A DNA stretch of 64,000 bases from contig NZ_SHLD01000001.1 of the NCBI RefSeq assembly GCF_004217615.1, positions 3,348,001 to 3,412,000 on the forward strand, read 5' to 3'. The DNA comes from Micromonospora kangleipakensis (GTDB lineage: Bacteria; Actinomycetota; Actinomycetes; Mycobacteriales; Micromonosporaceae). Under the pieces are notes generated by a model, which saw nothing but the letters and a program-made list of their open reading frames with translations, made no database searches and had not been told where the DNA came from. Shown piece by piece: positions 35,775 through 42,787 of the stretch. A program made the position numbers and the translations under genes. Positions within the stretch are counted from its first letter, which is position 1. Every line of letters starts with the position of its first letter.

Positions 35775-36092
35775 GTGCCGCTCCCGTCACTGACCCCCGA
35801 GCAGCGCGCTGCCGCGCTGGAGAAGGCCGCGGAGATCCGCAAGGCCCGTGCAAAGCTGAAGGAGGACCTGAAGCAGGGCAAGACCAACCTCGCCACGGTC
35901 CTCGAGCAGGCCGAGTCCAACGACGTCGTCGGCAAGCTGAAGGTGTCGGCCGTCCTGCAGGCCATGCCGGGCATCGGCAAGATCCGGGCCACCCAGATCA
36001 TGGAGAAGCTCAAGATCGCCGACAGCCGCCGACTGCGTGGCCTGGGCGAGCAGCAGCGCAAGGCTCTGCTTGGAGAGTTCGCCGCCAACTGA
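35775..36092 (+). CDS. mihF: Integration host factor, actinobacterial type (MihF)
   Basis: 105 residues. Helical N-terminal region (EQRAAALEKAAEIRKARAKLKEDLKQG) and a helix-two-turn-helix DNA-binding core, VSAVLQAMPGIGKIRATQIMEKLKIADSRRLRGLG (about 58-92). This is the mycobacterial/streptomycete IHF, unrelated to enterobacterial IHF. It bends DNA and affects nucleoid structure and phage integration. GTG with GGAGA upstream. Its neighbour is the guanylate kinase homologue, as in other actinobacteria. Confidence 0.94.
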   Translation: MPLPSLTPEQRAAALEKAAEIRKARAKLKEDLKQGKTNLATVLEQAESNDVVGKLKVSAVLQAMPGIGKIRATQIMEKLKIADSRRLRGLGEQQRKALLGEFAAN

Positions 36093-36117: not shown

Positions 36118-36651
36118 GTGAGCACGGATGACGAGGCGCGCCCGGCGGCTCGGCTCACTGTCCTGGCCGGACCTTCCGGGGCCGGCACGGAGAGTGTCGT
36201 CGAGCTGGTCCGGGCGCGTTTCCCGTCCGCCTGGGTTCCCGTGGCGGCCACCACCCGGCCGCCCGGTGCGGGCGAGGTGGACGGCGTGGACCGGCTCTTC
36301 CTCGCCCCGGCCGCGTTCGAGCGGATGATCGCCGGCGACGAGCTGCTGGAGTGGAGCCGGATCGGGCCGTACCGGCGCGGTATCCCGCGCGCGGGGATCC
36401 GCTCCCGGCTGGCCGCCGGCCGGCCGGTGCTGCTCCCGCTGGACCTGCCCGGCGCGCTCGCTGTCCGGGCCGTGGCGCCGGACGCGCAGCTGGTGCTCCT
36501 CGCCCCGCCCGGCTACCGGCCGGACCCGGCCCTGGCGGCGACCTTCTCCCATGCCGTGACGCACGACCGTGCCGAGCGCGCGGCCGACGAGCTGGTAGGC
36601 TTGCTCGGTTCTTCCTTCCTGGCTCCGGCCCAACCGCGCCCGAGCGGTTGA
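36118..36651 (+). CDS. Guanylate kinase homologue lacking catalytic residues (likely pseudoenzyme)
   Basis: 177 residues at the usual gmk position (after mihF, before rpoZ). The order of motifs is that of guanylate kinase (P-loop, TTRxPxxGE, AxxLLEW, LLPLDLPGA, LVLLAPP), but key residues are changed: the P-loop reads GPSGAGTES at 18-26, with Thr24 where the essential Lys should be; the GMP-binding Arg is Gly50 and the GMP-binding Tyr is Arg59. The lid with RGTE..IxxRL and the following helices are largely missing, giving about 20-25 residues less than normal. The reading frame is intact. If this is right, active GMP kinase must be encoded elsewhere. I did not give it the symbol gmk for that reason. 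Confidence 0.8.
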   Translation: MSTDDEARPAARLTVLAGPSGAGTESVVELVRARFPSAWVPVAATTRPPGAGEVDGVDRLFLAPAAFERMIAGDELLEWSRIGPYRRGIPRAGIRSRLAAGRPVLLPLDLPGALAVRAVAPDAQLVLLAPPGYRPDPALAATFSHAVTHDRAERAADELVGLLGSSFLAPAQPRPSG

Positions 36652-36695: not shown

Positions 36696-36959
36696 GTGGG
36701 ATCCATCGCCAACCCCGAAGGCATCACCAACCCGCCGATCGACGAGCTCCTCGAGAAGACGACCTCGAAGTACGCGCTGGTGATCTTCGCCGCCAAGCGC
36801 GCGCGTCAGATCAACGCCTACTACAGCCAGCTCGGTGAGGGCCTGCTGGAGTACGTCGGTCCGCTCGTGGAGACCACCCCGCAGGAGAAGCCGCTCTCGA
36901 TCGCCATGCGCGAGATCAACGCGGGCCTGCTCACCGCCGAGCCGACCGACCAGCCGTAA
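36696..36959 (+). CDS. rpoZ: RNA polymerase omega subunit
   Basis: 87 residues. [37 protein letters not shown] (about 11-46) is the actinobacterial omega core that clamps beta-prime; the tail [15 protein letters not shown] is also typical. It aids polymerase assembly. AGAGGT lies 7 nt before GTG. A small hairpin (ACCGC tttcgc GCGGT) is 20-40 nt upstream. Confidence 0.95.
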
Positions 36960-39531: not shown

Positions 39532-41547
39532 GTGGACATGCCCCTGGCCCACCTGGACCGCCCCTTCGACTACCTGGTCCCCGCCGAGCTGGACGCCGAG
39601 GCGGTCCCCGGCGTCCGGGTCAAGGTGCGCTTCGCCGGCCAGCTGGTCGACGGCTGGCTGCTGGAGCGGGTCGAGCAGTCCGACCACCCCCGGCTGGCGT
39701 ACCTGGAGAAGGTCGTCTCGCCGGTGCCGGTGCTCGCGCCGGAGATCGCCCGGCTGGCCCGGGCGGTGGCCGACCGGTACGCCGGCAGTCTCGCCGACGT
39801 GCTCCGCCTCGCCGTGCCGCCCCGGCACGCCCGCGCCGAGAAGGAGCTCGTCGGCGCCGCGCCGCCCCCGGCCGACACCGCCCCGGCCGGCCCGGCCGCC
39901 GGCACCGCCGGCGGCACCGGCACCCCTCCGGTCGGCGCAACCGTCGTCCCCGCCGGCACCGCCTCGGCCGGCCCGACCGCCGAGGCGGTACCGCTCGACC
40001 CGCGCGGCTGGCGGGACTACCCGGCCGGGCCGGCGTTCCTCCGCGCGCTCACCGACGGGCGGGCGCCCCGCGCGGTCTGGTCGGCCCTGCCGGGGGAAGA
40101 CTGGGCCGCCCGGCACGCCGACGCCGTCGCCGCCACCGTGGCCGGCGGCCGGGGCGCGCTGATCGTGGTGGCCGACGCCCGGGACCTGGACCGGCTCGAC
40201 GCCGCGCTGACCGGCACGCTCGGGCCCGACCGGCACGTCTGTCTCTCCGCCGCGCTCGGACCGGCCCGGCGCTACCGCGCCTTCCTCGCCGCCCGGCGGG
40301 CCGAGGCGCCCGTGGTGATCGGCACCCGCGCGGCGATGTTCGCCCCGGTGGACCGGCTCGGCCTGGTGGCGATCTGGGACGACGGCGACGACCTGCACGC
40401 CGAGCAACGGGCGCCGTACCCGCACGCGCGGGAGGTGCTGCTCACCCGGGCCCAGCTCGGCGGGGCGGCGGCCCTGGTCGGCGGGTACGCCCGGACCGCC
40501 GAGGCGCAGCTGCTGGTGGAGACCGGCTGGGCCCGAGAGGTGGTCGCCGACCGGACGACCGTGCGGGCGCGTACCCCGGCGATCGCGCCGACCGGCGACG
40601 ACCCGCAGCTGGCCCGCGACCCCGGCGCGGCGACGGCCCGGCTGCCCAGCCTGGCCTGGACCACCGCCCGGGACACCCTGCGCGCCGACGCCCCGGTGCT
40701 GGTGCAGGTGCCCCGCCGCGGCTACCTGCCCTCGGTCGCCTGCGCCGACTGCCGGACCCCGGCCCGCTGCCCGCACTGCGCCGGCCCGCTCGCGCTGCCC
40801 TCCGCCGCCGGGACGCCCGCCTGTCGCTGGTGCGGCCGGGTCGCCGCCGCGTACGCCTGCCCGGAGTGCGGCGGGCGGCGGCTGCGCGCCTCCGTCACCG
40901 GCGCCCGGCGCACCGCCGAGGAGCTGGGCCGCGCCTTCCCCGGGGTGCCCGTCCGCACCTCGGGCCGGGAGGAGGTGCTCACCACCGTGCCCGCCGGGGC
41001 CGGCCTGGTGATCGCCACCCCCGGCGCGGAGCCGGTCGCCGAGGGCGGCTACGGGGCGGTGCTGCTGCTCGACTCGTGGGCGCTGCTCACCCGGGCCGAC
41101 CTGCGGGCCGGCGAGGAGGCGCTGCGTCGCTGGCTGGCCGCCGCAGCCCTGGCCCGGCCGGGCGCGGCCGGCGGCCGGGTGGTGGTGGTCGCCGACGGCG
41201 CCCTCGCGCCGGTGCAGGCGCTGCTGCGCTGGGACGCGGCCTGGTTCGCCGCCCGGGAGCTGGCCGAGCGGCGGGAGCTGGGCTTCCCGCCGGCGGTGAA
41301 GATGGCCAGCGTCACCGGCCCGGCCGAGGCGGTGGCCGACCTGCTCGCCGGGGCCCGGCTGCCGGACGACGCCGAGGTGCTCGGCCCGGTCCCCGCCGAC
41401 GAGGGCCGGGAGCGGATGCTGGTGCGGGTGCCGCGCGCCCGGGCCGCCGCCCTCGCCGAGGCGCTGCACACGGCCGCCGGGCAGCGCAGCGCCCGCAAGG
41501 CCGCCGATCCGGTCCGCCTCCAGGTAGACCCGCTGAGCCTGTTCTGA
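39532..41547 (+). CDS. priA: Probable replication restart protein PriA (helicase-motif-poor type)
   Basis: 671 residues. The N-terminal 3'-DNA-binding domain (VDMPLAHLDRPFDYLVP) and the cysteine-rich zinc-binding region (about 402-446; CADC..CPHC..CRWC..CPEC) match PriA, but Walker A is absent: the P-loop position holds a plain GEDW stretch, as in mycobacterial and streptomycete PriA. It probably loads or remodels without helicase action. There is a Pro/Ala linker near 105-160. The first start in frame is GTG 39532; codons directly upstream (ARVC) also look PriA-like, so the true start may be a rarer codon inside the hairpin. No ribosome site is seen. Confidence 0.88.
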   Translation: MDMPLAHLDRPFDYLVPAELDAEAVPGVRVKVRFAGQLVDGWLLERVEQSDHPRLAYLEKVVSPVPVLAPEIARLARAVADRYAGSLADVLRLAVPPRHARAEKELVGAAPPPADTAPAGPAAGTAGGTGTPPVGATVVPAGTASAGPTAEAVPLDPRGWRDYPAGPAFLRALTDGRAPRAVWSALPGEDWAARHADAVAATVAGGRGALIVVADARDLDRLDAALTGTLGPDRHVCLSAALGPARRYRAFLAARRAEAPVVIGTRAAMFAPVDRLGLVAIWDDGDDLHAEQRAPYPHAREVLLTRAQLGGAAALVGGYARTAEAQLLVETGWAREVVADRTTVRARTPAIAPTGDDPQLARDPGAATARLPSLAWTTARDTLRADAPVLVQVPRRGYLPSVACADCRTPARCPHCAGPLALPSAAGTPACRWCGRVAAAYACPECGGRRLRASVTGARRTAEELGRAFPGVPVRTSGREEVLTTVPAGAGLVIATPGAEPVAEGGYGAVLLLDSWALLTRADLRAGEEALRRWLAAAALARPGAAGGRVVVVADGALAPVQALLRWDAAWFAARELAERRELGFPPAVKMASVTGPAEAVADLLAGARLPDDAEVLGPVPADEGRERMLVRVPRARAAALAEALHTAAGQRSARKAADPVRLQVDPLSLF

Positions 41548-41560
41548 CCGCCGCCGTACG

Positions 41561-41628
41561 CCCGGCAAGTAGCCATATTCACGGAACGAGTGGCCATCCC
41601 GGGTCGAATGGCTACTCTTGCCGTGAAT
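41561..41628. other. Three-arm structure with alternative pairing after priA
   Basis: A 21-nt left arm at 41577-41597 pairs with 41608-41628 (18 of 21 positions) over a 10-nt loop. A second left arm at 41563-41576 (ggcaagtagccat) pairs with most of the same right arm (atggctact...ttgcc). The two stems exclude each other. It sits 14 nt after the priA stop with no T-run. Confidence 0.6.
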
Positions 41629-41803
41629 CTGCGCGGCTCCTGTGGCCGGTCGTCGGACCACGCGTGCGGCAAACGGGTGGTAGCTGCGTGATAGCATCGC
41701 CCGTCATGCCCGGGCGCACGGATGGCGCGACGAAGGCGGGAACGCGTCGATCCGACGCCAAATCGATGATGTCAATCAGCCGGTGAGCAGGGGTGGACCA
41801 GTC

Positions 41804-42787
41804 GTGACCGTTCGTCAATCGATCGTCTTCAACGGCGACCTCGGCAGCGGCAAGAGCACCGTCTCCGTCGAGATCGCCAAGCGGCTGGGGCTGCGCCGGG
41901 TCAGCGTCGGCGACCTCTACCGGCAGATGGCGCAGGAGCGGCAGATGACCGCGCTCCAGCTCAACCTGCACGCCGAGCTGGACCAGGCGGTCGACGGCTA
42001 CGTCGACCAGCTCCAGCGGGACATCGCGGCCTCCGGCGAGTCGCTGGTGATGGACTCCCGGCTGGCCTGGCACTTCTTCACCGACGCGCTCAAGGTGCAC
42101 ATGATCACCGAGCCGACCGAGGCGGCCCGGCGGGTGCTCGCCCGCCCGTCCGGCCCGGCCGAGAGCTACGCCTCGCTGGAGGAGGCGAAGGCCAAGCTCC
42201 GGGAGCGCAGCGAGAGCGAGCGCGGCCGGTTCATCGTCCGGTACGGCGTCGACAAGGCCCGGCTGCGCAACTACGACCTGATCTGCGACACCACCCGGGC
42301 CACCCCGGAGCAGGTGATCGCGCACATCATCGACGCGTACGAGGGCCGGTTCGGCGCCGACGTGCTGGCCGACGCCCCGCCGCTGCTGCTGCTCGACCCG
42401 GCCCGGGTCTACCCGACCGAGGACATCACCACCCTGCGCGGGCTCTGGGACTCCGAGTTCGTCGGCGAGGTGGCCGGGGCCGGCGACGAGGCCCTCGAAC
42501 CGCTGCGGATCGGCTACACCGGCGAGTACTTCTTCGTCGTCGACGGGCACCGCCGGCTCAGCGCCGCCGTCCAGAGCGGCTTCCCCCTCGTCCCGGCCCG
42601 GCTGGTCGCCGAGGTGGAGGAGCCGGTGGTCGGCGGGATGAGCGCGGTCGACTACTTCGCCGCCCAGGTCCGCCCCAGCATGATCCACGACTGGGAGGCC
42701 GCCCACGGCATCGCGCTGCCGCTGCCCGAGCACGCCCTGCTCGGCGGGGACGCGGTGCTGGCCGGGGAGCCGGGCACCGGCGCCTGA
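41804..42787 (+). CDS. P-loop (cytidylate kinase-like) kinase fused to a ParB/sulfiredoxin-like domain
   Basis: 327 residues. The N-terminal half (about 1-190) is a small-molecule kinase: P-loop GDLGSGKST at 11-19, and VSVGDLYRQMAQERQM (about 33-48) resembles the NMP-binding segment of archaeal-type CMP kinases; SGESLVMDSRLAWHF and RSESERGRFIVRYGVD follow as core strand and lid. The C-terminal part (about 200-275) has DPARVYPTEDITTLR and YFFVVDGHRRLSAAVQSG, the ParB/sulfiredoxin-type DGHRR box that in other proteins binds CTP or ATP. Function unknown. GTG 41804 is preferred (AGGGG upstream); GTG 41783 is possible and adds 7 residues. It lies between priA and def in an accessory insert. Confidence 0.65.
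   Translation: MTVRQSIVFNGDLGSGKSTVSVEIAKRLGLRRVSVGDLYRQMAQERQMTALQLNLHAELDQAVDGYVDQLQRDIAASGESLVMDSRLAWHFFTDALKVHMITEPTEAARRVLARPSGPAESYASLEEAKAKLRERSESERGRFIVRYGVDKARLRNYDLICDTTRATPEQVIAHIIDAYEGRFGADVLADAPPLLLLDPARVYPTEDITTLRGLWDSEFVGEVAGAGDEALEPLRIGYTGEYFFVVDGHRRLSAAVQSGFPLVPARLVAEVEEPVVGGMSAVDYFAAQVRPSMIHDWEAAHGIALPLPEHALLGGDAVLAGEPGTGA

Follow-up and report, generated by a model that had tools for sequence, protein, structure and literature searches.

Guanylate kinase (Gmk) is near universal in bacteria and normally essential, and the conversion of GMP to GDP, an established step of GTP synthesis, must persist in the cell. In Pseudomonas putida KT2440, a horizontally acquired dNMPK, PP_1964, replaces a disrupted tmk, a substitution that was tested experimentally; the abstract of that report describes a gene that "landed" at a locus with the same activity (PMC10653934). 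For the Archaea, a 2014 survey gives the GMP kinase gene as unidentified and favours an AK6-like adenylate kinase (PMC4177761). Our literature search found no paper on guanylate kinase in Micromonospora or the Micromonosporaceae, and for Actinoplanes and Salinispora none on the topic by title.

The present analysis concerns a stretch of 64,000 nucleotides (the window) from Micromonospora kangleipakensis, whose genome is a complete single contig of 7.27 Mb. The window holds a degenerate guanylate kinase homologue, here called the gmk remnant, and, 5.2 kb downstream of it, the gene for a kinase of another family, here called NMPK, which is the candidate replacement GMP kinase.

The gmk remnant and its locus

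The gmk remnant (36118..36651, forward strand) has a GTG start, 177 amino acids, and no internal stop. It lies between mihF (35775..36092, forward strand; NF041260, 139.8 bits), which encodes the actinobacterial integration host factor, and rpoZ (36696..36959, forward strand; TIGR00690, 80.5 bits), which encodes the omega subunit of RNA polymerase, so that the intact frame at the gmk locus described in the original prediction is borne out. The same mihF-rpoZ interval holds full-length gmk at one of the loci compared (L200) and decayed copies at three others (L201, L205, and L206). The match of the remnant to Pfam Guanylate_kin (PF00625), at 54 bits, is confined to residues 11-131, and NCBIfam guanyl_kin (TIGR03263) gives 90.6 bits, below its equivalog cut-off of 160.45; in a profile search, the best solved-structure matches are guanylate kinases (e.g., 1s4q, 101.6 bits).

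Alignment of orthologues recovered the defects that had been read from the single sequence, several of them common to the genus. The P-loop Lys is Thr, the GMP-contacting Arg (R41) is Gly, the GMP-contacting Tyr (Y50) is Arg (we take the residue numbers to follow those of yeast Gmk), and the LID is mostly missing, with 11 residues and none of its Arg left, versus 36 residues in the nine full-length sequences aligned. Further changes affect the residue after the P-loop Lys, which is Glu, as well as S34 (Ala), Y78 (Arg), and S/T80 (Ile); R38, E69, and D98 are retained. Among 12 aligned Micromonospora sequences, the P-loop Lys has been replaced in every one (by Arg in ten and by Thr and Val in one each), and all 12 share Y50R and Y78R. 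R41 is Arg in ten, Cys in one, and Gly in that of the window, and this last change is thus peculiar to the window's genome. Other genomes show these defects too, so they are no assembly accident. These replacements suggest that the remnant is without catalytic activity.

The original prediction offered two ways out of the loss of an essential enzyme, a second, active gmk elsewhere in the genome or an enzyme that works differently. The first was not borne out: a profile search of the complete genome found no Gmk-family gene besides the remnant, and at an E limit of 10 the Gmk profile otherwise picked up short P-loop stretches, with E values of at least 0.26. The prediction had also counted the lack of another gmk against a non-catalytic remnant. 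No other gmk was indeed found, but that argument presumed that GMP can be phosphorylated by Gmk alone.

Loss and decay of gmk in the family

The remnant is typical of its genus. Of a further 36 genomes in the genus, 35 carry a single match of 40-64 bits, the exception being G014 (92% complete), in which there is none; among the matches listed for the genus, 36/36 are free of internal stops. In other families of the order, 22 of 24 genomes have one match of 136-168 bits. The remaining two depart from this pattern or have no match, G049 being one without, and the matches listed for these families number 23.

We sampled 300 genomes of the family and took as full-score gmk any match above the guanyl_kin cut-off. 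By this measure 165 genomes have a full-score gmk and 135 fall below. The 106 genomes of the window's genus comprise 104 with low-scoring remnants and two without a match, and the other 29 comprise 20 with remnants, eight blanks (7/7 genomes of g66, plus G121, which is 77% complete), and G115. In G115, which belongs to an otherwise gmk-full genus, gmk matches in two overlapping frames (C1 6858101-6858633, L067); this is probably a frameshift or sequencing error. In a sample of 394 genomes from the class, 377 have a full-score gmk. The 17 below the cut-off are three of the window's genus, 11 match-less drafts, G354 (75% complete, with a weak gmk match), and G413 and G499, whose two gmk matches each are likely a split gene.

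Stages of decay were compared in an alignment of 28 decayed and nine full Gmk sequences. Of the 28 decayed sequences, 27 are without the LID and 16 without the P-loop Lys; R38 and D98 are kept in all 28, and E69 in 27. In the seven g54 sequences the LID is missing but Lys, R41, Y50, and Y78 are intact, and the Micromonospora remnants have lost Lys, Y50, and Y78 in addition to the LID. The copy of G143 still encodes 33 LID residues, with altered Arg, and its P-loop Gly is altered as well. The loss of the LID in G082 is independent, its congeners carrying 36 residues. Decay has gone further in G333, where an internal deletion and a frame change leave two pieces of gmk in different frames, and in G328, which has no gmk match between mihF and rpoZ.

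These genomes bear on the second way out, that the remnant itself is still a GMP kinase with an altered mechanism. It is the only Gmk-family gene of its genome and it keeps R38, E69, and D98; against this, the P-loop Lys is replaced, the LID is deleted with its Arg, and relatives live with gmk missing (7/7 g66 genomes and G328) or broken (G333). Because relatives manage with gmk missing or destroyed, we regard an altered mechanism as extremely improbable.

Selection on the remnant was estimated as dN/dS (NG86, pairwise medians) from 13 Micromonospora sequences, two of them identical, in 77 pairs. The median is 0.50 (range 0.32-1.02), and in neutral simulations the median lay at 0.90-1.40 and the lower 2.5% point at 0.59-0.81. 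Comparison medians are 0.28 for full gmk, 0.26 for the g54 remnants, and 0.63 for five g32/g40 remnants; the neighbouring genes in Micromonospora stand at 0.03 (rpoZ) and 0.04 (mihF). A value between neutral and constrained indicates that selection is relaxed but not absent. The dN/dS measurement proposed in the original prediction thus finds some purifying selection remaining, and together with the uninterrupted frames it supports the description of the gene as a retained pseudoenzyme.

Part of the conservation at the 3' end of the remnant seems to belong to DNA rather than protein. Alignment of upstream regions found a conserved element at 36592..36615 (forward strand), with a -10-like TAGGCT at 36596-36601; its sequence, CTGGTAGG[AC]TT, occurs in 15 of 19 aligned 150-base stretches upstream of rpoZ, among them those of G328 and G333, whose gmk frame has been destroyed. 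The element is probable rpoZ promoter or leader DNA, and since it persists without the frame, it accounts for part of the conservation of the remnant's C-terminus.

The original prediction suggested that the protein has been kept in a non-catalytic role, perhaps as a sensor of GMP or ppGpp; it might for instance bind these nucleotides and act on rpoZ expression or on RNA polymerase. Such a regulator would be compatible with NMPK as the GMP kinase. The open frame in all 36 listed matches of the genus, a median dN/dS below the neutral simulations, and the persistence of R38, D98, and (but for one sequence) E69 through decay speak in its favour. However, G328, G333, and all of g66 lack the gene or have it broken, selection on it is far weaker than on rpoZ and mihF with some pairs reaching 1.02, and the P-loop, Y50, and Y78 differ among lineages. 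The 3' element outlives the frame, moreover, and translation through the operon can also keep a frame open. We regard a regulatory role as possible but rather doubtful; the remnant is most likely a non-catalytic, dispensable relic under weak selection.

NMPK, a candidate replacement kinase

NMPK (41804..42787, forward strand) starts with GTG at 41804 and encodes 327 amino acids. In the window's group it sits just behind the operon of the gmk remnant; the frame directly upstream in the window (39532..41547, forward strand), delimited as an open reading frame and by neighbourhood comparison, is presumably priA. NMPK surfaced when an adenylate-kinase profile was run on 28 genomes, as a weak match (E 0.002-0.016) to an open reading frame of about 320-390 amino acids (1067 in G333) that was found in 15/15 gmk-less genomes. 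Public databases name the proteins "AAA family ATPase" or "cytidylate kinase."

The N-terminus (about residues 1-180) is a P-loop NMP-kinase domain of the archaeal (d)CMP-kinase type with an intact P-loop, NGDLGSGKST. It scores 62.5 bits with AAA_18, and the best NCBIfam match is TIGR02173 (cyt_kin_arch), to whose model positions 3-165 of 169 residues 7-177 align. The score of 84.2 bits, like the 87-95 bits of eight other members, is below the equivalog cut-off of 102.1. In a profile search of solved structures, NMPK matched adenylate and cytidylate kinases, for the most part around the P-loop. The protein carries an extra C-terminal domain of about 140 amino acids (42365-42784), in which a VDGHRRLSAA motif was seen by eye; weak ParB_N/ParBc_2 (PF02195-type) matches, with best E values of 0.065-0.15, were obtained for two of six C-termini, that of the window not among them. 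This domain is longer in copies from gmk-less genomes and shorter or decayed in many others. Relatives of about 242-245 amino acids were seen in two Candidatus Limnocylindrales MAGs (P0217 and P0234), Chloroflexota-type by name. For NMPK, 595 pairs from 35 sequences give a dN/dS of 0.26 for the whole gene and 0.19 for the kinase portion, a constraint comparable to that on full gmk, yet with values well above that of rpoZ.

Upstream of NMPK, at 41688..41708 (forward strand), the window has a conserved promoter-like stretch, GTGATAGCATCGCCCGTCATG, whose core GTGRTASCATCGCCC is common to nearly all of 14 aligned upstream regions; it is a putative promoter of NMPK. Between priA and NMPK, at 41565-41630, interleaved inverted repeats, GTAGCCAT/ATGGCTAC and ATTCACGG/CCGTGAAT, can be read by eye. 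They were found in none of 13 aligned relatives, and are therefore perhaps a small insertion. A search for known RNAs upstream of NMPK or the gmk remnant returned two sub-threshold microRNA-like matches only.

The case for NMPK as a substitute is based on its distribution. It is present in 157 of the 300 family genomes: in 133 of the 135 without a full-score gmk (106/106 of the window's genus and 27/29 of the others), and in 24 of the 165 with one, or 23 if G086, a weak match at 2e-7, is excluded. The two exceptions lacking both are G121, with its 77% completeness, and G115, with its frame-split gmk. Outside the genus, the association between NMPK and gmk loss has a Fisher p of 7e-18, uncorrected for kinship and with G115 counted as gmk-full. 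Across 20 genomes, NMPK is the top AAA_18 match, among the matches listed, in 10/10 that are gmk-less (59.7-72 bits), and the best match in the ten gmk-full genomes is 50 bits. In the class sample of 394 genomes, NMPK was found (E up to 1e-10) only in the three of the window's genus. In the class, 360 genomes reach 90% completeness with contamination no higher than 5%; three of these, from outside the family (G338, G375, and G554), have neither a gmk match nor NMPK; all are drafts of at least 100 contigs each, and either draft gaps, the simple reason, or another solution there would account for them.

A species tree of 35 chosen taxa, built from metK, coaBC, and priA (1163 columns), places gmk decay or loss at no fewer than four separate positions in the family, and NMPK is present at each. 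These are (i) a clade of g1, g32, g42, g54, and g58 (support 0.89); (ii) G082 inside g45 (1.0); (iii) g66, sister to g46 (0.99); and (iv) G143 inside g33 (1.0). In cases (ii) and (iv) the congeners (G112 and G132 for G082, G070 and G107 for G143) retain a full gmk and lack NMPK. Since support is below 0.7 for the node that unites g40 with the first clade, g40 could represent a fifth independent loss. A back-of-envelope estimate of the chance that NMPK would join four unrelated losses, using its frequency in gmk-full genomes, is (24/165)^4, or about 4e-4. Eight genomes (G328, G333, G006, G069, G103, G164, G214, and G268) show a second high-scoring metK-like match besides the copy at the locus.

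The NMPK proteins might instead be second (d)CMP kinases, as annotated, with the tie to gmk loss a by-product of kinship. TIGR02173 is after all the best NCBIfam match of the protein. But none of the nine scores reaches that model's cut-off, and the association recurs in separate losses nested among gmk-full congeners. Canonical Cmk, moreover, is present in 25/25 genomes tested, 17 of them gmk-less; NMPK is therefore unneeded for CMP, a point that bears on need and not on activity, and loss of Cmk as the reason for NMPK is rejected. We consider the annotated function, as an explanation of the association, quite improbable.

GDP might also be made by another enzyme, such as a promiscuous Tmk or Adk or a kinase outside our search, with NMPK doing something else. 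The genomes encode many P-loop kinases (AAA_18 matches reach at least 26 per genome among the matches listed), and the search covered some families, with Adk, Cmk, PPK2, and AAA_18 profiles. Among those covered, no Adk paralogue is common to the gmk-less genomes of the window's group, and PPK2 is missing in 6/18 gmk-less genomes and is hence no general substitute. Only NMPK tracks gmk loss so closely in these scans, and a different GDP-forming enzyme is in our judgment distinctly unlikely. Identical-score adk matches lie at both ends of the window's contig (C1 2209-2766 and 7263886-7264443; L143 and L167), probably a terminal redundancy of the assembly.

In a midpoint-rooted tree of 33 genome copies and 13 database proteins, the 18 NMPK copies from gmk-less genomes group together (support 0.70, or 0.94 without G143), along with one metagenome protein, P0221. 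Next to them (0.94) are the copies of g46 genomes that have both genes (G113 and G133). The g66 and g40 copies cluster (0.96), contradicting the species tree. The gene follows priA in the window, G328, G333, and G116, and in G082 it is flanked by bioA and pyrF, at 1.6 kb from the gmk remnant. Its distance to the gmk locus is 12 kb in G143 and 16 kb in G077, and in G122 and G164 it lies beyond the gmk neighbourhood that was retrieved. The differing locations and the grouping of g66 with g40 suggest horizontal transfer, and the data fit a gain of NMPK by transfer with gmk decay afterwards. A biosynthetic-cluster or resistance context for NMPK in gmk-full genomes was considered and rejected: ten neighbouring frames at five loci have no common theme, comprising transporters, regulators, methyltransferases, an esterase, and YchJ-like and aminoglycoside-adenylyltransferase-like frames, or having no match.

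Probable displacement of gmk and comparison with known systems

We judge it quite probable that NMPK took over the step from GMP to GDP by non-orthologous displacement and that the resident gmk then decayed. The resident gene is lost or apparently inactive, and a kinase of another family is present across at least four losses. As we reconstruct it from the sequences, a kinase akin to archaeal-type (d)CMP kinases would have reached this bacterial family, apparently through horizontal transfer, and assumed the phosphorylation of GMP. The resident gmk, freed from catalysis, would have decayed, losing its LID to an in-frame deletion, exchanging the P-loop Lys and other GMP contacts as well in the Micromonospora line, and disappearing altogether from some lines. 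We infer this order, gain of NMPK before decay of gmk, and likewise the activity of NMPK on GMP.

More broadly, NMPK could represent a new class of GMP kinase from archaeal-type CMP-kinase stock that spreads horizontally as an accessory gene and makes gmk dispensable where it settles, the same stock being the source of the archaeal GMP kinase; this wider proposal is speculative and, taken whole, unlikely.

A large group that lives without Gmk, with remnants at several stages of decay, is a natural experiment on the replacement of an essential enzyme. Two misleading annotations are corrected, that of the remnants as guanylate kinase and that of the probable GMP kinase as an ATPase or a cytidylate kinase. 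The proposed displacement is also relevant to metabolic models of these antibiotic producers.

Each of the two proteins differs from its closest family. The remnant shares with bacterial Gmk (PF00625, TIGR03263) the mihF-rpoZ locus, a fold-level match, and R38, E69, and D98, but lacks the P-loop Lys and the LID and scores 90.6 rather than at least 160.45 bits. NMPK aligns with the archaeal-type (d)CMP kinases of TIGR02173 over nearly the full length of that model, but falls below its cut-off, has the extra C-terminal domain, and occurs beside a canonical Cmk where gmk is lost.

The P. putida case is alike in that an essential NMP-kinase function was taken by an acquired kinase and the resident gene is a pseudogene, and the gene that "landed" there resembles NMPK in G082, so close to the gmk remnant (PMC10653934). 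It is unlike in concerning a TMP kinase and a T4-like dNMPK in one strain, with experiments, whereas the present case concerns a putative GMP kinase of another kinase family in several lineages and hundreds of species, as read from sequences.

The Archaea resemble Micromonospora in converting GMP to GDP without a PF00625 Gmk (PMC4177761), and PF00625 had no match in four archaeal control genomes. Given an archaeal GMP kinase gene listed as unidentified in that survey (PMC4177761) and an NMPK that would derive from archaeal-type CMP-kinase stock, a direct test is possible, and this stock is a concrete candidate family for the archaeal enzyme.
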